Shown here: one piece after another, positions 16,193 through 43,047 of the stretch
Position numbering within the stretch: the first letter of the stretch is position 1
How the letters are laid out: every line of letters begins with the position of its first letter
Translations under genes and position numbers: made by a program
Notes under the pieces: generated by a model
What the model was told of the DNA's origin: nothing
What the model saw: only the letters and a program-made list of their open reading frames with translations
Database searches by the model: none
NCBI RefSeq assembly: GCF_900169565.1
Contig: NZ_LT828648.1
Span: 1,056,876 to 1,120,875, forward strand
Direction: 5' to 3'
Origin: Nitrospira japonica
Lineage (GTDB): Bacteria; Nitrospirota; Nitrospiria; Nitrospirales; Nitrospiraceae
DNA: 64,000 nt

Positions 16193-16405
16193 TCATGGCT
16201 GTCGGTTGGCTGAAGCCACCCCCGCCATCGCAAACAACGGCGTACGGCCGAGCTTCACGCGGGTTCTGGACGCCGGCTCCCGACGAGGCGTCAGAATTCG
16301 CATGTCGGTAATCGCGCCGCAATTGACGCAGCGAAATCCATCGCATTGCAACGGACCATAGAAGTAGTCGAAAACTTTGAAACCGCCGCATCGTTCACAA
16401 TTCAT
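16193..16405 (-). CDS. Small zinc-ribbon protein
   Basis: 70 aa beginning MNCERCGGFKVFDYFYG with a second cysteine pair CVNCG about 20 residues later, a typical four-Cys zinc ribbon, followed by a basic tail. ATG 16405 follows GAGGAGACTCCAGC, a good ribosome site, which is the main reason to accept this short gene. Function unknown. About 150 bp downstream, GCGCCGGC and GCCGGCGC can pair around 16147-16171 and may act as a terminator. Confidence 0.65.
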   Translation of the reverse strand: MNCERCGGFKVFDYFYGPLQCDGFRCVNCGAITDMRILTPRREPASRTRVKLGRTPLFAMAGVASANRQP

Positions 16406-16601
16406 GCTGGAGTCTCCTCTTCAAAAAGGTGCGGTGCTCGGCAAGGTCCTCGATCGGAGCGGAAGAGTCTGCCGCCGATCGGGCGCTACGCCCTGTATAT
16501 CGGCGGTAAGCACAAAGACTGCCACAAGTATGAATCGACGGAAATTCTGCAACTTACGTCGGATCATCCTGTCGGGTAGTGAATGGTCGAGCCTTCCAGA
16601 G

Positions 16602-16618
16602 CGGGACAACTTGTCCCG
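16602..16618. promoter_or_regulatory. Perfect GGGACAA-N-TTGTCCC operator before the kinase gene
   Basis: CGGGACAA and TTGTCCCG flank a single C, giving a perfect 17-bp palindrome 17 bases before the kinase start codon. It is the most symmetrical copy of the dyad found at the sigma-54 targets. There is no room for a -24/-12 promoter between it and the gene, so autorepression of the kinase/activator operon is the likeliest role. Confidence 0.65.
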
Positions 16619-16635: not shown

Positions 16636-18234
16636 ATGGAGAAATCCGAGCCGGCCCATTCGATATTGTTTTCCGGCACGGCGACGACCGTTGTCCTGTT
16701 GGTCGTGATGACGGTCGCGACGTTTGCGGCGGACCGATATTTCTCGCTCGGCGCGGCGGTATGGGTTCTCTACTTCGTACCGGTCGTCCTGACGACACAG
16801 TTGTTACCGCAGTACACGGGGATCGCCTTGACGGTCGGGGGAAGCCTGCTGCTGGCGGGTTTAATCGATTCGAATGGAGGCCTGTCCTACGAAACGGCGG
16901 TCGCCAGTCGCGGGCTGGGACTTCTTGTGCTGGTCTTTACCGGTCTCTTCCTGTTGCAGCACCGCCGTACCGTGGCAGCGCTGCAGGCCAGCGAGGATCG
17001 GTATCGGCTTCTCCTGGCCGAGCACGCTCGCGCCAGGGCGGAAGCGGCGCTTCAAGCGGTGCAGGAGCGGTTCAAGAGCATTTTCCATTCATCCCACGAC
17101 GCGATTGCCTATGCCACGTTCGAGGGAACCTTCCTGGAGGTCAACGATGCGTTTGTCCGCTTGTCAGGGCAGATGCGTGAGGAGTTGATCGGGCCGGGGC
17201 CGGCGTCTGCCTCCCTCTGGGCGGCTCTGGAGCTTCCGGCCGAGCGGCTGCACCGGCTGCAGGAAACCGGCATCCCTATCTCTTATGAAACGCTGTATCG
17301 TCCGGACGAGCGTGCGCCCGAATACCTGAACGTTCATGCCTTCGCGGTGGCGGCTCCCGACGGCTCGATGTCGGGCCTCGCATTGATGATCCGCAACATC
17401 ACCGCAAGACGGCAGGCGGAAGCGGATTTGCAGCGTGCGGGAGAAGAATTGCGTGCCAAGAACGAAGCCCTTGCGCGCACCAATGAAATCCTTTCGGCCG
17501 TCCAACGGGCCGCCGCCAGGGCGCAGCGGTTGTCGGCCGTGGGGCAGTTCGCCGCTACCGTCGCCCACAAAATCGGCACGCCGTTGACGGCCTTGTCCGG
17601 GCACGTGCAACTGCTCATGGAGGACCTCTCCCTGCCGTCAAAAGTGCGCGGGCGGCTGCAGATGGTAGAAGCGCAAATCGAACGGACTTCGTGCATCATC
17701 CAGGATCTGTTGCTGTACGCGCGCCGCGAACCGCCGGTCCGGACGCGGACCGACGTGAACGAATGCCTTGAGGACTGCGTGTCGTTGTTCAAGACCGAAT
17801 GCGAACGCCTGCACGTCGCCTGCATCACCGAATTGGCGGCCGATCTGCCGCCGGCCGAAGTGGACCGCCAGCAGATACAGGAAACCGTCAACCATCTGAT
17901 CGAGAACGCGCTGCAGGCGATGCCCAACGGAGGATCGCTGTGCTTGCGGACGCGGGCGGCGGAGGGCGCGGCCACCTGGCGCGGATCGGTCCGATCGACT
18001 GGAGTCGCGATTGAGATCGTCGATACGGGCCAGGGCATCAATCCCGATCATCTGACGCAGATTTTCCAGCCGTTTTTCACCACCAAGCAGGCGGGCCGCG
18101 GCACCGGTTTGGGACTGGCTATCGTGCAGGAAACGGTGCGGGCCCACGAAGGGCGCATTACAGTCGAAAGTGAGCCGGGAAAGGGAACCAGCTTCGTGAT
18201 TTTCCTTCCCACGGCGGAACAATGGAGAAACTGA
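16636..18234 (+). CDS. Membrane PAS histidine kinase paired with the NtrC-type activator
   Basis: 532 aa. Membrane helices at residues 15-35, 40-58, 63-78 and 90-108, a PAS domain at about 140-262, a coiled coil, a HisKA dimerisation domain with H311 (VAHKIGTPLTAL) and a HATPase (NHLIENALQAM, DTGQGI, GTGLGLAIV, GKGTSFVIFLP). The residue after the phospho-His is Lys, where His-Glu is usual. ATG 16636 begins the membrane region. The stop overlaps the activator's start (TGATG), so kinase and activator are translated together. The signal is unknown; the N-terminal helices suggest an envelope or membrane cue. Confidence 0.93.
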   Translation: MEKSEPAHSILFSGTATTVVLLVVMTVATFAADRYFSLGAAVWVLYFVPVVLTTQLLPQYTGIALTVGGSLLLAGLIDSNGGLSYETAVASRGLGLLVLVFTGLFLLQHRRTVAALQASEDRYRLLLAEHARARAEAALQAVQERFKSIFHSSHDAIAYATFEGTFLEVNDAFVRLSGQMREELIGPGPASASLWAALELPAERLHRLQETGIPISYETLYRPDERAPEYLNVHAFAVAAPDGSMSGLALMIRNITARRQAEADLQRAGEELRAKNEALARTNEILSAVQRAAARAQRLSAVGQFAATVAHKIGTPLTALSGHVQLLMEDLSLPSKVRGRLQMVEAQIERTSCIIQDLLLYARREPPVRTRTDVNECLEDCVSLFKTECERLHVACITELAADLPPAEVDRQQIQETVNHLIENALQAMPNGGSLCLRTRAAEGAATWRGSVRSTGVAIEIVDTGQGINPDHLTQIFQPFFTTKQAGRGTGLGLAIVQETVRAHEGRITVESEPGKGTSFVIFLPTAEQWRN

Positions 18235-19589
18235 TGGACGTTCATTCTCATGTGCTCGTGGTGGACGATGACGAAGATACCAGGGGGTTGCTGAGCGAGA
18301 TTCTGGCGAAGGAGGGCTACGACGTGGAAACCGCCTCGGACGGCAAGACCGCCCTTGAACGGATCACGGACCGGCCGCCCGACCTCGTGATGTCGGACAT
18401 CCACATGCCGAGCCTGGACGGCATGAGTTTGTTGGAAGAGTTGCGGAGCCGTAACCAGGATGTACCGGTGATCCTGATGACCGCCTTTGGTTCCCTGAAG
18501 ACCGCCGTCGACGGGCTCAGGTCCGGCGCGTTCGACTACCTCAGCAAACCGTTTATCGTCGACGATATCCGGTTGGTGGTTCGGCGCGCGCTGGAGCACA
18601 AGCATCTTTCCCGCCAGAACCAGGCCCTCAAGGAGCAGCTGCGCGATCGCTATCGGTTCGACAACCTGGTCGGCAGCAGCGCCGGCATCGTCTCGGTCTA
18701 CAAGTCGATCGCCCGTGTGGCCCATACCGACAGCACGGTGCTGCTTCAGGGAGAAAGCGGCACGGGAAAGGAATTGATCGCGCGGGCGGTCCATGCGAAC
18801 AGCGCGAGGAGCGCCGGTCCGTTCGTCGCCGTCGACGGCGGGTCGTTGGCGGAGACTCTGCTCGAATCCGAATTGTTCGGACACGAGCGCGGCTCCTTCA
18901 CCGGCGCGGTCGCTTCCAAGAAGGGCCTGCTGGAGAAAGCGCACCAGGGCACGTGCTTCCTGGACGAAGTCGCAGACCTGTCTCCGGTTCTGCAAGGAAA
19001 GCTGTTACGGGTGATCCAGGAGCGGGAGATCCGGCGCGTGGGCAGCAACGCGCCGATGAACATCGACGTCCGCATCATCGCCGCGTCCAAGAAGGACCTG
19101 GATCAGCTTGTCAAAGCCGGCACGTTCCGCGAGGATCTGTATTATCGACTGAACGTGGTGACGATCCAGATTCCGCCGCTTCGGGAACGTGCGGAAGACA
19201 TCCCCTTGCTGACCCAGTATTTCATTCAAATGTACGGGCAAAAGAAGTCCCCGCCGGTCACCGGCATCGCGCCGGAGGCCATGTCGCTGCTCACCCGGTA
19301 TTGGTGGCCGGGCAATATCCGGGAGTTGGAGCATGCGATCGAACGGGCCATCGCCCTGACGCCGCAGTCCGTCATTTTCCCCGAGGATCTGCCGCAGTCG
19401 ATTCAGACCGCCACCGTGCAGGCGGCGGCTCAGGCCCGCGGATGGGTGACACTGGCCGAATTGGAGAAAGACCATATTCTCCGCGTACTGGAGGCGCACA
19501 ACCAGGATCTCGGCCGCGCCGCCGCCATCCTCGGTATCCACCGTAAAACGCTGCTCAGAAAGTTGCGCTATTTCGGGTACCCCTGCTGA
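18234..19589 (+). CDS. NtrC-family sigma-54-dependent response regulator
   Basis: 451 aa. Receiver (1-120; acidic DDD at 11-13, phospho-acceptor D55 in LVMSDIHMP, K105), AAA+ domain (145-375) with Walker A GESGTGKE at 173-180, the sigma-54-contacting GSFTGA loop at 220-225, Walker B CFLDEVADL and the arginine-finger region DLYYRLNVV, then a Fis-type HTH (GRAAAILGIHRKTLLRKL). The intact loop predicts direct sigma-54 activation. The preferred start ATG 18234 has GGAG upstream; ATG 18222 is in frame. Dyads of one type at eight loci in this window are its proposed binding sites. Confidence 0.96.
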   Translation: MDVHSHVLVVDDDEDTRGLLSEILAKEGYDVETASDGKTALERITDRPPDLVMSDIHMPSLDGMSLLEELRSRNQDVPVILMTAFGSLKTAVDGLRSGAFDYLSKPFIVDDIRLVVRRALEHKHLSRQNQALKEQLRDRYRFDNLVGSSAGIVSVYKSIARVAHTDSTVLLQGESGTGKELIARAVHANSARSAGPFVAVDGGSLAETLLESELFGHERGSFTGAVASKKGLLEKAHQGTCFLDEVADLSPVLQGKLLRVIQEREIRRVGSNAPMNIDVRIIAASKKDLDQLVKAGTFREDLYYRLNVVTIQIPPLRERAEDIPLLTQYFIQMYGQKKSPPVTGIAPEAMSLLTRYWWPGNIRELEHAIERAIALTPQSVIFPEDLPQSIQTATVQAAAQARGWVTLAELEKDHILRVLEAHNQDLGRAAAILGIHRKTLLRKLRYFGYPC

Positions 19590-19590
19590 G

Positions 19591-19620
19591 GACAGGTTGT
19601 CGAGGAAAGGACAGGCCGTC
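19591..19620. promoter_or_regulatory. Paired GACA-N3-TGTC activator sites
   Basis: GACAGGTTGTC (19591-19601) and GACAGGCCGTC (19610-19620) are centred 19 bp apart, immediately after the activator gene and 51 bp before the -24 element at 19665. Confidence 0.65.
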
Positions 19621-19664: not shown

Positions 19665-19680
19665 AGGCCCGATCCTTGCT
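19665..19680 (+). promoter_or_regulatory. Sigma-54-like promoter for the single-receiver gene
   Basis: AGGCCCGATCCTTGCT has GG and GC separated by 10 bases with CTTGCT at -12, close to consensus. It lies 60 bases upstream of the receiver gene start at 19740. Confidence 0.7.
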
Positions 19681-19739
19681 CATCTACCCCACGGGCGGAT
19701 TGTCATTACATTCATATGTCGTCATGCAGGAGGTGTCAC

Positions 19740-20186
19740 ATGGCGGAAGGGTATGGAAAACGGATTCTTGTGGTCGATGACAATGCCGATGTGCGGTTTA
19801 TTCTGTCCACGGTACTGGAGGCGGCAGGATTCAATGTGTATGGAGCCGGAGACGGGCTCGAGGCCGTCGAATGCTTGAAGCGTCGGCGGTACGACGTCCT
19901 GCTGACGGACTATCGTATGCCCAAGATGGACGGATTGGAGCTCTTGGACATGGTACGAGCGATGTGGCCGGATCTTCCGGTGATCATGGTCACGGGCGAC
20001 AGAGCTTCATTCAAGCATGATCGTCTCGGCGCGGAAGCATTTGCCGTCGTGGACAAGCCGTTCGACCGGGCGCATCTGTTGAGTCTGGTCGCCATCGCCG
20101 CAGCCAAGGGAGCCGGTCCCGGCGTCATTCAACAAGGCCGTCGTCGTCCGGAGGCTGCTCCGATCGCTTCGGCATGGATGGGATGA
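19740..20186 (+). CDS. Single-domain response regulator
   Basis: 148 aa: a receiver only (VVDDNADVR at 11-19, phospho-acceptor D57 in VLLTDYRMPKMDG, T in MVTGDRA, K in VVDKPFD) and a basic C-terminal tail without a known output. ATG 19740 follows GCAGGAGGTGTCAC. It is transcribed downstream of the kinase/activator pair but from its own sigma-54-like promoter with two activator sites, so it may provide feedback, for example as a phosphate sink for the kinase at 16636. Confidence 0.9.
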   Translation: MAEGYGKRILVVDDNADVRFILSTVLEAAGFNVYGAGDGLEAVECLKRRRYDVLLTDYRMPKMDGLELLDMVRAMWPDLPVIMVTGDRASFKHDRLGAEAFAVVDKPFDRAHLLSLVAIAAAKGAGPGVIQQGRRRPEAAPIASAWMG

Positions 20187-22997: not shown

Positions 22998-23693
22998 TCA
23001 GTGCTTCTTCTTGGCATCGTTCTCGAAGCCGGGAGCCTGGCCCGGAGGTCCTCCCCGGTCGCCCAGGTTGCCGGCGGCGGAATCCTCGCCCATAGAACCG
23101 CTCGAAGGCGCGACTCGCTGCGTTCCACGCCCGTCGCCAGGCCCGACGTAGGGTTTCGTCTCCTCACGCTTGTGCTCGATTTCTTCCATGTACATGGCTA
23201 GATCGGGCGAGAGATCTTTCGATTCCGAACGGTCCACATTCGGGAGCAACTGCTCCTTCGACATGTTGAGGACGAGCTTGTCGCCTTTCTGTTCGAAGCT
23301 GCTCCATTTCATCGGACGCGCATAACGCGAATCCGTCACCTCGAAGAATACGTACTCGATATCCTGAGTCTTCTCGTCCTTCAGGACTTTCTTGATCGTG
23401 CCGAGCTTTTCTCCCTGCTTGTTCGTCACGGTTTGATTGAGCCATTTACTGTCCGTGATCTCTTTCAGTTTGCCCTGACGAACCGGCGTGGTCGAATATT
23501 CATCAGGAATGCCGGATTTTCCACCTGTCAGATCCGTCTGCTTGTCACGCGGCACACTGTCCGGCGACGGCATCCCCCCGCCGACCTGGGATGACGCATT
23601 CGAGGAATCCGCGCGCACCGGCGTCATGGTGCCGGTACAAACCAATACGGCCGCGGCTGCTCCGATAATGATCGTAACCTTCGCTTGTTTCAT
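22998..23693 (-). CDS. Secreted PRC-barrel-domain protein
   Basis: 231 aa. Signal peptide (VTIIIGAAAAVLVCTGTMTPVRA), a Ser/Gly/Asp-rich linker, a PRC-barrel-like domain at about 78-160 (LNQTVTNKQGEKLGTIKKVL, EYVFFEVTD, PMKWSSFEQKGDKLVL) and a disordered Gly/Pro-rich tail ending KKKH. Periplasmic location is predicted; PRC barrels mediate protein or RNA interactions. ATG 23693 follows AACAGGAGGCATGCA. A sigma-54-like promoter lies at 23794-23809, and it shares activator sites with the divergent ASRT gene. Confidence 0.85.
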   Translation of the reverse strand: MKQAKVTIIIGAAAAVLVCTGTMTPVRADSSNASSQVGGGMPSPDSVPRDKQTDLTGGKSGIPDEYSTTPVRQGKLKEITDSKWLNQTVTNKQGEKLGTIKKVLKDEKTQDIEYVFFEVTDSRYARPMKWSSFEQKGDKLVLNMSKEQLLPNVDRSESKDLSPDLAMYMEEIEHKREETKPYVGPGDGRGTQRVAPSSGSMGEDSAAGNLGDRGGPPGQAPGFENDAKKKH

Positions 23694-23793: not shown

Positions 23794-23809
23794 TGCAAGT
23801 CACAGGCCG
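23794..23809 (-). promoter_or_regulatory. Sigma-54-like promoter for the PRC-barrel gene
   Basis: The minus strand reads CGGCCTGTGACTTGCA, with GG and GC 10 bases apart and CTTGCA at -12. It is 100 bp upstream of the start codon and 105 bp from the nearest shared activator site. Confidence 0.65.
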
Positions 23810-23913
23810 CAATCGTCACCCATCCCCCACTCCGCACGAGTTCCGCCATTGTTCCGATAGTTGTGACGACGATGGCGACTCCCCGCCGGTCTTTGAATCG
23901 GAACGCCCGGCAC

Positions 23914-23945
23914 GACAGGTTGTCCGGGAGCCGGGACAGAAGGTC
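23914..23945. promoter_or_regulatory. Paired GACA-N3-TGTC sites between divergent sigma-54-like promoters
   Basis: GACAGGTTGTC (23914-23924) and GACAGAAGGTC (23935-23945) are centred 21 bp apart. They lie roughly midway between the PRC-barrel promoter and the ASRT promoter (about 80-110 bp from each) and could serve both. Confidence 0.65.
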
Positions 23946-24019
23946 TCCATCAACCGATAGTCAGTTGCGCGATTCCGCCTACAATCCTTATCGCGTAGAC
24001 GGCGCAGCTTGACCGATGA

Positions 24020-24035
24020 AGGCACTGGGCTTGCA
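24020..24035 (+). promoter_or_regulatory. Sigma-54-like promoter for the ASRT gene
   Basis: AGGCACTGGGCTTGCA is one of the best matches in the window to the -24/-12 consensus (GGCAC, N10, TTGCA). It lies 81 bases upstream of the ASRT start codon. Confidence 0.75.
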
Positions 24036-24116: not shown

Positions 24117-24494
24117 ATGACGAGCATCGGCAAGCGACGATGGGCGGTTGCGGAAGGCTATATTCCTGCCACCAGTACCGGCCCGCATCCGCAGATGACG
24201 AGCCATGAGACGCTCTGTCTGCTCAATGCCGGGAATCGCGATGCGCACGTGCAAGTGACCGTGTTCTACCGCGATCGGGAACCCGTGGGGCCATACCGGA
24301 TTATCGTACCGGCGAGGCGTACCCTCCATTTGCGCCTCAACGATCTGAGCGATCCGGCGCCGATTCCGGTCGATACGGATTTTGCGACCGTGATCGACTC
24401 CGACGTCCCGATCGTCGTACAGCACACGAGGTTGGACTCGCGCCAGGCCGAGAACGCGCTCATGAGCACGGTGGCGTTCGCATGCGACGAATGA
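24117..24494 (+). CDS. Anabaena sensory rhodopsin transducer (ASRT) family protein
   Basis: 125 aa matching the ASRT family along its full length: RRWAVAEGYIPATSTGP, SHETLCLLNAGNRDAHV, FYRDREPVGPYR, VPARRTLHLRLNDL, DPAPIPVDTDFATVI and VPIVVQHTRLDSRQAENAL. In Anabaena the tetrameric beta-sandwich protein binds a sensory rhodopsin and possibly DNA or carbohydrate; most homologues occur without a rhodopsin, as here. ATG 24117 (MTSIGKRRW) follows AGGAAAGAGATC and matches the family start; the longer frame from 24009 overlaps the promoter. Likely sigma-54 controlled. Confidence 0.9.
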   Translation: MTSIGKRRWAVAEGYIPATSTGPHPQMTSHETLCLLNAGNRDAHVQVTVFYRDREPVGPYRIIVPARRTLHLRLNDLSDPAPIPVDTDFATVIDSDVPIVVQHTRLDSRQAENALMSTVAFACDE

Positions 24495-28372: not shown

Positions 28373-28402
28373 GACAGACTGTCGAAGGAAGGACAGGCTG
28401 TC
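28373..28402. promoter_or_regulatory. Paired GACA-N3-TGTC activator sites
   Basis: GACAGACTGTC (28373-28383) and GACAGGCTGTC (28392-28402), two perfect dyads centred 19 bp apart, lie in the 336-bp gap after the cydB-like gene. A further GACAG half-site follows at about 28404. Confidence 0.68.
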
Positions 28403-28489: not shown

Positions 28490-28505
28490 AGGTCTGTTCT
28501 TTGCA
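28490..28505 (+). promoter_or_regulatory. Sigma-54-like promoter for the HAD-like gene
   Basis: AGGTCTGTTCTTTGCA has correct GG-N10-GC spacing and TTTGCA at -12. It is 178 bp upstream of the gene start and 94 bp downstream of the nearest activator site. Confidence 0.62.
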
Positions 28506-28682: not shown

Positions 28683-29285
28683 ATGATTCGTGCCGTATTT
28701 CTGGACCAGGGCGGGGCGCTCGAAAGTCCATGCTATGGCACAGAGCCCTCCCGTCTGATGTCCGATACATTCGAAGGACTGCGGTTGTTGCAGCGCGCCG
28801 GATACGCGGTCGTCGTCGTGACGCATCAAGGCGGCGTGGCAAAAGGATTTCTGGGCGAACCGGACGTACATCGAATGAAGGCATATCTCGAAGCCCGCCT
28901 GATCGAAGAAGATATTCCATTGGGAGGGTTCTATTATTGCCCTCACCACCCCGACGGCAAGGTCCGGAGATATGCGGTTCATTGTTTGTGTCGCAAGCCC
29001 CAACCGGGGCTTCTGATTCGTGCCGCATCCGAATTGAGGGTCGACATGGGTCAATCGTGGATGGTCGGAGCGACTCTCGATGACATCGAGACGGGCCGCT
29101 GGGCCGGTTGCCGCACGGTGTTGCTGACGAACGGCCATGAAACCGAGTGGAATCTAACCGAGCCGCGCTGGCCTGACTATATTGCGGGGACTCTGCTGGA
29201 AGCCTCGCAATTGATCGCACTCTCAAGCCCGCGCGGAGTGACCCAGGTTCCGTTGGATCGATTGAGCCGTCCGCCTCTTCTCTAG
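28683..29285 (+). CDS. GmhB-like HAD protein with altered catalytic motifs
   Basis: 200 aa resembling D,D-heptose 1,7-bisphosphate phosphatases: VVVTHQGGVAKGFLGE, a Cys/His zinc site (CPHHPDGK and CLCRKPQPG) and the MVG-DDIETG region. Motif I, normally D-x-D-G-T, reads FLDQGGAL: D8 is kept but the second Asp is Gly10. In motif IV the Asp of VGD is Ala (VGATLDDI). Catalysis is therefore doubtful although the fold and zinc site look intact. ATG 28683 follows GCAGGAGGAGTTACACGTC. It starts a likely sigma-54-driven operon with the copper protein. Confidence 0.85.
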   Translation: MIRAVFLDQGGALESPCYGTEPSRLMSDTFEGLRLLQRAGYAVVVVTHQGGVAKGFLGEPDVHRMKAYLEARLIEEDIPLGGFYYCPHHPDGKVRRYAVHCLCRKPQPGLLIRAASELRVDMGQSWMVGATLDDIETGRWAGCRTVLLTNGHETEWNLTEPRWPDYIAGTLLEASQLIALSSPRGVTQVPLDRLSRPPLL

Positions 29286-33501: not shown

Positions 33502-33517
33502 TGCAAAGCGAATGCCC
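33502..33517 (-). promoter_or_regulatory. Sigma-54-like promoter for the PLD-DedA gene
   Basis: The minus strand reads GGGCATTCGCTTTGCA, close to consensus, with GG and GC 10 bases apart and TTTGCA at -12. The predicted transcript start is near 33491, only a few bases before the ATG at 33487. Confidence 0.62.
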
Positions 33518-33569: not shown

Positions 33570-33625
33570 GACAGTCTGTCCTTTCGGACCGGCGAACCAG
33601 CCTGTCCCGCGCAGAACATTTTGTC
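33570..33625. promoter_or_regulatory. GACA-N3-TGTC sites between divergent sigma-54-like promoters
   Basis: A perfect dyad GACAGTCTGTC (33570-33580, extended on the left by GACA) and two imperfect copies, ACCAGCCTGTC (33596-33606) and AACATTTTGTC (33615-33625), the last two centred 19 bp apart. They lie between the PLD-DedA promoter (53 bp from the first) and the SDR promoter (132 bp from the last). Confidence 0.55.
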
Positions 33626-33756
33626 CGGCCGGGATTGCGGCGGAGCTGCGAGTTGTCGCTTCAGCGCGAGGCGGCCTGTCGCCGAAGAGGAGGTGGCTGA
33701 AGGCAGTATTGATGGAGAGAGCAGAACGTTCGTCGGCAGCGGACAAGGGTGTGAGC

Positions 33757-36411: not shown

Positions 36412-36442
36412 GACGGATTGTCCCCGTTCGAGACAACTTGAC
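36412..36442. promoter_or_regulatory. Paired GACA-N3-TGTC-like activator sites
   Basis: GACGGATTGTC (36412-36422) and GACAACTTGAC (36432-36442), each one base from the perfect dyad, are centred 20 bp apart and lie 117 bp upstream of the -24 element at 36553. Confidence 0.55.
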
Positions 36443-36552
36443 CCACACGAGTCGATCTCAAAATGGGACGGGAGCCGTCCGTCTCCGCCTCCACTGCAGG
36501 AAAATCAAACAAAACCCTCGGTCGATCGTGCGGAGGCGTGCGGGGTCTCTCG

Positions 36553-36568
36553 CGGCTCCGGACTTGCA
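36553..36568 (+). promoter_or_regulatory. Sigma-54-like promoter for the DksA-like gene
   Basis: CGGCTCCGGACTTGCA has the correct GG-N10-GC spacing and CTTGCA at -12. It lies 53 bases upstream of the DksA-like start codon. Confidence 0.65.
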
Positions 36569-42538: not shown

Positions 42539-42874
42539 TCATCCCCGATTGTGCGAGGATTCCCTCGCTTCACGAAGCGCTTCTTTACCGCTTTGGGCGT
42601 ACTCCTTCGCGGTCCTGCCCGCTTCCTGCACGGCCTCTTGTCCTTGCTCATAATATTCTCGGCCGCGCTCGACCGCCGTATCCCATGCAGCCCTGCCTTT
42701 TTCCATCGCCTCGTCCTTCGCCCGCGAGGCATAGTTTCGCAGCATGCCGCGCAACTCGGATCCGGTCTGCGGTGCGAATAGCAGCGCTACCCCGGCTCCG
42801 ATCAATGCTCCCGCGATGAAAGCGGACCAACCGGTCGCGTCGTCTTCGTAGTACTCGTAATCGCCATTGCGCAT
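42539..42874 (-). CDS. YtxH-domain stress protein
   Basis: 111 aa. An acidic start (MRNGDYEYYEDD), one glycine-rich helix (WSAFIAGALIGAGVALLFAP) followed by QTGSELRGMLRNYA, then an amphipathic Glu/Lys/Ala region: the usual YtxH layout of a membrane-anchored stress protein. ATG 42874 follows CCAGGAGGATGCG. The sigma-54-like promoter at 42939 and the paired sites at 43018 place it in the proposed regulon. Confidence 0.88.
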   Translation of the reverse strand: MRNGDYEYYEDDATGWSAFIAGALIGAGVALLFAPQTGSELRGMLRNYASRAKDEAMEKGRAAWDTAVERGREYYEQGQEAVQEAGRTAKEYAQSGKEALREARESSHNRG

Positions 42875-42938: not shown

Positions 42939-42954
42939 TGCAAACCTCAGACCC
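42939..42954 (-). promoter_or_regulatory. Sigma-54-like promoter for the YtxH gene
   Basis: The minus strand reads GGGTCTGAGGTTTGCA: GG and GC are 10 bases apart and -12 is TTTGCA. It lies 64 bases before the YtxH start and 70 bp from the nearer site. Confidence 0.66.
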
Positions 42955-43017: not shown

Positions 43018-43047
43018 GACAGATTGTCCACCCAGAGATAGAATGTC
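43018..43047. promoter_or_regulatory. Paired GACA-N3-TGTC activator sites
   Basis: GACAGATTGTC (43018-43028, perfect) and GATAGAATGTC (43037-43047, one mismatch) are centred 19 bp apart in the 617-bp gap between the YtxH and GT4 genes. I see no gene in that gap. Confidence 0.62.

Follow-up and report, generated by a model that had tools for sequence, protein, structure and literature searches.

The stretch of DNA analysed here (the window; G000:C1:1056876-1120875, 64 kb) is part of the 4.08 Mb genome of Nitrospira japonica, which belongs to the same family as N. moscoviensis. Within it, two genes diverge from a common spacer. The ASRT gene lies on the plus strand (24117-24494) behind the ribosome-binding site AGGAAAGAG, and its 125-aa product matched PF07100 over the full length of the profile in the Pfam search (positions 1-119 of 119, E 2.4e-55). 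The gene on the minus strand (22998-23693), with an AGGAGG site upstream, encodes a 231-aa PRC-barrel protein (PF05239, E 2.5e-7) with a signal-peptide-like N-terminus. Using a sigma-54 weight matrix built from the known consensus and not trained on the host's phylum, we found a predicted -24/-12 promoter towards ASRT (AGGCACTGGGCTTGCA, 24020-24035, plus strand) that ranked first among the approximately 128,000 positions on both strands of the window, and a second one towards the PRC-barrel gene (CGGCCTGTGACTTGCA, 23794-23809, minus strand) that ranked tenth at 10.6 bits, its -24 half (CGGCCT) being weak. The GG-N10-GC core was present within the -24/-12 consensus, and RpoN is encoded in the N. 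japonica genome. Plain counting of sigma-54-like sites with up to three mismatches gave no excess in the window (78 versus 92 expected from shuffles), so that the weaker, PRC-side site is not provable by sequence alone, and the analysis turned to the weighted score and to conservation.

Between the two predicted promoters lie two putative activator dyads of the GACA-N3-TGTC type, GACAGGTTGTC at 23914-23924 and GACAGAAGGTC at 23935-23945, the second following 21 bp after the first; the stretch between them (23921-23938) reads TGTC-N10-GACA. A pattern for the dyad pair matched once in the window against 0 expected, although it was derived from these very loci, and a generic listing of inverted repeats in the window did not single the dyads out. 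The first-pass annotation had described two divergent sigma-54-like promoters flanking one pair of dyads at 80-110 bp, and this arrangement was recovered: both sites lie at the two ends of the interval, and the measured distances are close to those proposed, with 104 bp from the end of the minus-strand promoter to dyad 1 and 74 bp from dyad 2 to the start of the plus-strand promoter.

The same arrangement is conserved in relatives. A strong rightward sigma-54 site, a GACA-N3-TGTC dyad matching dyad 1 and a leftward sigma-54 site (CGGCCTATGACTTGCA at locus L004) precede ASRT in nine Nitrospiraceae genomes, namely the window genome, G006 (L003/L004), N. moscoviensis (G054; L005/L063), G103, G105, G115, G055, G057 and G104, even though the orthologous spacers of the other eight share only 37-47% identity with the one in the window. 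Gene order is also shared, since the series kinase-activator-response regulator-HerA-HAD-PRC-ASRT is common, in whole or in part, to N. moscoviensis, G115, G055 and G057. Sigma-54 control as a general trait of ASRT genes was rejected, the module being absent from 19 of the 28 ASRT-bearing genomes of the family. At L008, L132, L134 and L135, where ASRT occurs without a PRC-barrel gene and activator nearby, the dyad and promoters are absent, and the ASRT loci examined in other phyla had no such promoters except for isolated moderate matches. Two further observations concern the ASRT genes themselves. Pyxidicoccus, of another phylum, carries ASRT copies (L006, L007) that are 73-77% identical to that of the window and lack a strong sigma-54 promoter; their similarity could possibly reflect horizontal transfer. 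G104 carries two copies, one elsewhere without the module (L056/L132) and one within it (L072/L073/L133), and the match of the latter is split into two pieces in differing reading frames, perhaps through a frameshift.

The combination of dyads and promoter recurs across the window. The motif GACAANTTGTC, with one mismatch allowed, had 8 matches where 1.36 were expected; dyad pairs numbered 8 against 1.1 in resampled sequence, and a suitably spaced sigma-54 site accompanied 7 of the pairs, where 0.05 were expected. A dyad pair at 19591-19620, directly 3' of the activator gene discussed below, is followed by the second-ranked sigma-54 site of the window (19665-19680, plus strand), which points towards the gene of a single-domain response regulator (19716-20186, plus strand), a proposed regulon member with a like module in several relatives. 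The dyad GACAACTTGTC (16605-16615), upstream of the kinase gene, is kept together with its sigma-54 site (16509-16524, minus strand) in several relatives, the site pointing towards a small Cys-rich gene (about 16193-16405, minus strand). Two perfect dyads (28373-28402) lie upstream of a HAD-hydrolase gene (about 28683-29285), with a sigma-54 site towards it at 28490-28505 on the plus strand. Dyads at 33570-33626, between a PLD-type gene (minus strand) and a short-chain dehydrogenase gene (plus strand), are accompanied by a site towards the PLD-type gene (33502-33517, minus strand), and an equivalent module is found in N. moscoviensis. The latter also has a module at its YtxH gene; in the window, a dyad pair at 43018-43047 lies upstream of the YtxH gene (about 42539-42874, minus strand), with a weak sigma-54 site towards it at 42939-42954 (minus strand). 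In addition, the perfect dyads GGGACAGATTGTCC and GGGACAGTTTGTCCC lie 30 bp apart at 602-642, between a secreted-protein gene (minus strand) and a NarL-type response regulator gene (plus strand), with no clear sigma-54 site on the side where one would be expected, and a dyad pair in the region 36412-36568 is followed by the sigma-54-like site CGGCTCCGGACTTGCA at 36553.

Genome-wide pattern searches extended this picture. In N. japonica the combined pattern had 29 matches, compared to 11 for the reversed control, and in N. moscoviensis it had 31 compared to 0. Of the 13 genomic N. japonica modules with a credible promoter, 6 fall in the window, which makes up 1.6% of the genome (P ~2e-8, a rough value because the modules were chosen partly by eye). 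Two modules outside the window lie about 640 bp apart (G000:C1:792486 and 793127; L098, L099) and point towards a gene for a CsbD-like secreted protein and the Ku gene; from their orientation, the DNA-repair protein Ku may be sigma-54-controlled.

The genes beside these modules point to a role for the putative regulon. In N. japonica, the predicted targets comprise ASRT, the PRC-barrel protein, the single-domain response regulator, the small Cys-rich protein, the HAD hydrolase, the PLD-type protein, YtxH, Ku, an MFS transporter, a DUF4403 lipoprotein, a glyoxalase-family protein, a small secreted protein and the secreted CsbD-like small protein, the last recognized by eye as it had no Pfam hit. 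The modules of N. moscoviensis share with these ASRT, PRC-barrel, response regulator, PLD-type, YtxH and DUF4403 genes, and further targets there are two hemerythrins, ribosomal S30AE, BON, DUF2382, DUF326, DUF6335, DUF4383 and a complex I subunit. A broad set of stress-type genes is thus found beside one control element, as in a general stress regulon: the CsbD, hemerythrin, BON and PRC-barrel families rise under stress in Nostoc (PMC7660261), and a PRC-barrel gene is under EcfG in Sphingomonas (PMC6599016). The stress role, like the inducing signal, is something that we infer. Alternatively, the regulon could serve one particular condition, for example low oxygen, nitrogen or biofilm growth. 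In both the window and N. moscoviensis, ASRT precedes a cytochrome bd operon, the complex I subunit gene has its module in N. moscoviensis, and sigma-54 has been linked to the cell exterior by Francke et al. (PMC3162934), all of which would suit such a role; against it stands the similarity of the Ku, S30AE, hemerythrin, YtxH, BON, PRC-barrel and CsbD-like members to genes whose expression rises in general stress responses (PMC7660261, PMC6599016), and we consider a condition-specific regulon rather unlikely. In N. moscoviensis, expression of the two cydAB copies is weak during steady nitrite-fed growth (PMC6606698), which fits inducible control and does not prove it. An RpoS-like protein reached 329.6 bits where the cut-off is 378.7, so that a sigma-S-like factor cannot be claimed to be absent.

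A candidate for the protein that binds the dyads is encoded close by. The product of 18222-19589 (plus strand) combines a receiver (PF00072), a sigma-54 activation AAA+ domain (PF00158) and a Fis-type HTH (PF02954), as in the NtrC family, with the Walker A motif GESGTGKE at residue 177 and GSFTGA at residue 224 instead of the usual GAFTGA. It is preceded on the same strand by the gene of a histidine kinase with a hydrophobic N-terminus (16636-18234), its proposed partner, which is syntenic in N. moscoviensis; the activator orthologue of that species is 90% identical. Among named families AtoC (NCBIfam NF008469) scored highest, and yet the activator could not be assigned to it (514.9 bits versus an equivalog cut-off of 714); ZraR (436.7 versus 760) and GlrR/QseF (362.9 versus 763), likewise judged by NCBIfam equivalog cut-offs, the PEP-CTERM response regulator PrsR (373.8 versus 502.6 for TIGR02915) and NtrC itself, with a score under its curated cut-off, were also rejected.

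The number of modules follows this protein across genomes. In a comparison spanning 175 genomes, whose relatedness means that P values overstate their independence, those with an activator orthologue of at least 75% identity had 12.1 pattern matches per genome against 1.3 for the control, those with an orthologue of 60-74% had 5.3 against 1.9, and those without an orthologue 1.8 against 1.3. Furthermore, in the DNA flanking 30 activator orthologues GACA-N3-TGTC was the most widespread of 256 such palindromes, occurring at 22 of these loci compared to 11 for the runner-up, and among the matches listed, most activator-bearing genomes had one within a few kb of the activator gene. In the syntenic cluster of N. 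moscoviensis and others, modules stand beside the kinase/activator genes, the response regulator gene, the ASRT/PRC pair and, where sampled, the PLD gene. G003, G019 and G150, with activator orthologues of 69-72%, had few or no modules. The promoters and dyads might be real and the activator a different NtrC-family protein, perhaps one of like specificity; the first genome search returned 117 activator-like candidates in N. japonica, and a modest pattern excess occurs in certain genomes that have no match reaching the activator cut-off (G063, G144 and G155 have 5-8 pattern matches). Nonetheless, such a substitution is improbable, given how module number tracks the presence and closeness of the 18222-19589 orthologue, the specific enrichment of the dyad in the activator-gene flanks and the matches lying near that gene.

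A similarly small chance attaches to the proposal that the dyads serve the ASRT promoter alone, while the PRC-barrel gene has a sigma-70 promoter of its own and the sigma-54-like site facing it is fortuitous. The rank of ten and the weak -24 half of that site would agree with this, but the 16-mer at 23794 tops conservation in the aligned spacers, the dyad at about 23910 being the next distinct element, and its GG and TTGCA are retained in nearly all of the nine loci. Moreover, in some relatives the first gene behind the leftward promoter encodes a different secreted protein, PRC-like by eye, or else a small secreted one, with the PRC-barrel orthologue coming next, and further bidirectional modules are present in N. 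moscoviensis. That all of these sites are what GC-rich DNA would yield by chance, as the unenriched three-mismatch count might suggest, is contradicted by the conservation, the module excess and the association with the activator to the point of being practically negligible.

We regard the predicted bidirectional sigma-54 control region between ASRT and the PRC-barrel gene as confirmed at the sequence level. The proposal of a shared activator site for the two genes draws strong support from conservation, the association of activator and site, and module recurrence, and their predicted co-regulation is well supported by the comparative evidence. It is very probable that the 18222-19589 activator, together with the 16636-18234 kinase, would bind the dyads and, with RpoN, drive the two promoters within a stress/envelope-type regulon. 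By analogy with the established behaviour of the NtrC family, the kinase would phosphorylate the NtrC/AtoC-type regulator, and phosphorylated dimers would bind the two dyads at 23914-23945 and assemble into an ATPase ring, which through DNA looping would activate RpoN-RNA polymerase at both divergent promoters, so that a single dyad pair could serve both sides. The ASRT-side promoter would then transcribe ASRT and perhaps downstream genes too, and the opposite one the gene of the secreted PRC-barrel protein. A like module would control about a dozen other units in N. japonica, whose products are similar to proteins of general stress and envelope protection.

The suggestion that ASRT acts with the PRC-barrel protein in a response outside light sensing fared unevenly. 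A role of ASRT outside light sensing is plausible, but a partnership finds no support beyond shared control, which does not mark the two as partners because the co-regulated units, these two included, number roughly one to two dozen. Rhodopsin (PF01036) had no match in N. japonica or among 396 genomes from its phylum, although the control genomes gave no match either, and ASRT in rhodopsin-less bacteria had already been noted by De Souza et al. (PMC2739507). As with the Anabaena sensory rhodopsin transducer described there, the N. japonica ASRT is a full-length PF07100 member, but it lies in a putatively activator-controlled region with a PRC-barrel gene.

Several known systems resemble the proposed one in part. 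In Salmonella, zraP and zraSR are transcribed from divergent sigma-54 promoters under one activator, ZraR (PMC4987338). Common to both systems are a two-component NtrC-family activator, divergent sigma-54 promoters, which are proposed here from sequence, and a product that is periplasmic and tied to envelope stress; however, neither of the divergent N. japonica genes is a two-component pair, the proposed regulon is much wider and the activator falls under the ZraR cut-off. The half-sites TGTC and GACA are identical to those of the GlrR box, TGTC-N10-GACA (PMC4987338, PMC8745638), a resemblance and not a membership, since the basic N. japonica dyad is GACA-N3-TGTC, its putative targets are many protein genes, whereas the GlrR targets given in PMC4987338 are the small RNAs glmY and glmZ, and the score again lies under the cut-off. 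AtoC has the same domain order as the N. japonica activator, but no acetoacetate genes are among the identified targets. The EcfG and sigma-B general stress regulons include similar target families, such as PRC-barrel (PMC6599016) and CsbD with others (PMC7660261), and use an alternative sigma factor directly, in contrast to the sigma-54 and activator proposed here.

No description of such a regulon was found in the open-access literature, and the predicted sigma-54 regulon of Nitrospira-type bacteria appears to be undescribed. Tentatively, and somewhat less probably than not, sigma-54 together with a single dedicated two-component activator could run the general stress response of these bacteria, with ASRT in the regulon as a small-molecule sensor and not a light transducer. 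ASRT, for its part, gains a testable regulatory setting among stress-type genes, and for an apparently undescribed regulon of nitrite oxidisers a concrete candidate binding site can now be given, along with a candidate activator by name and a list of putative targets.
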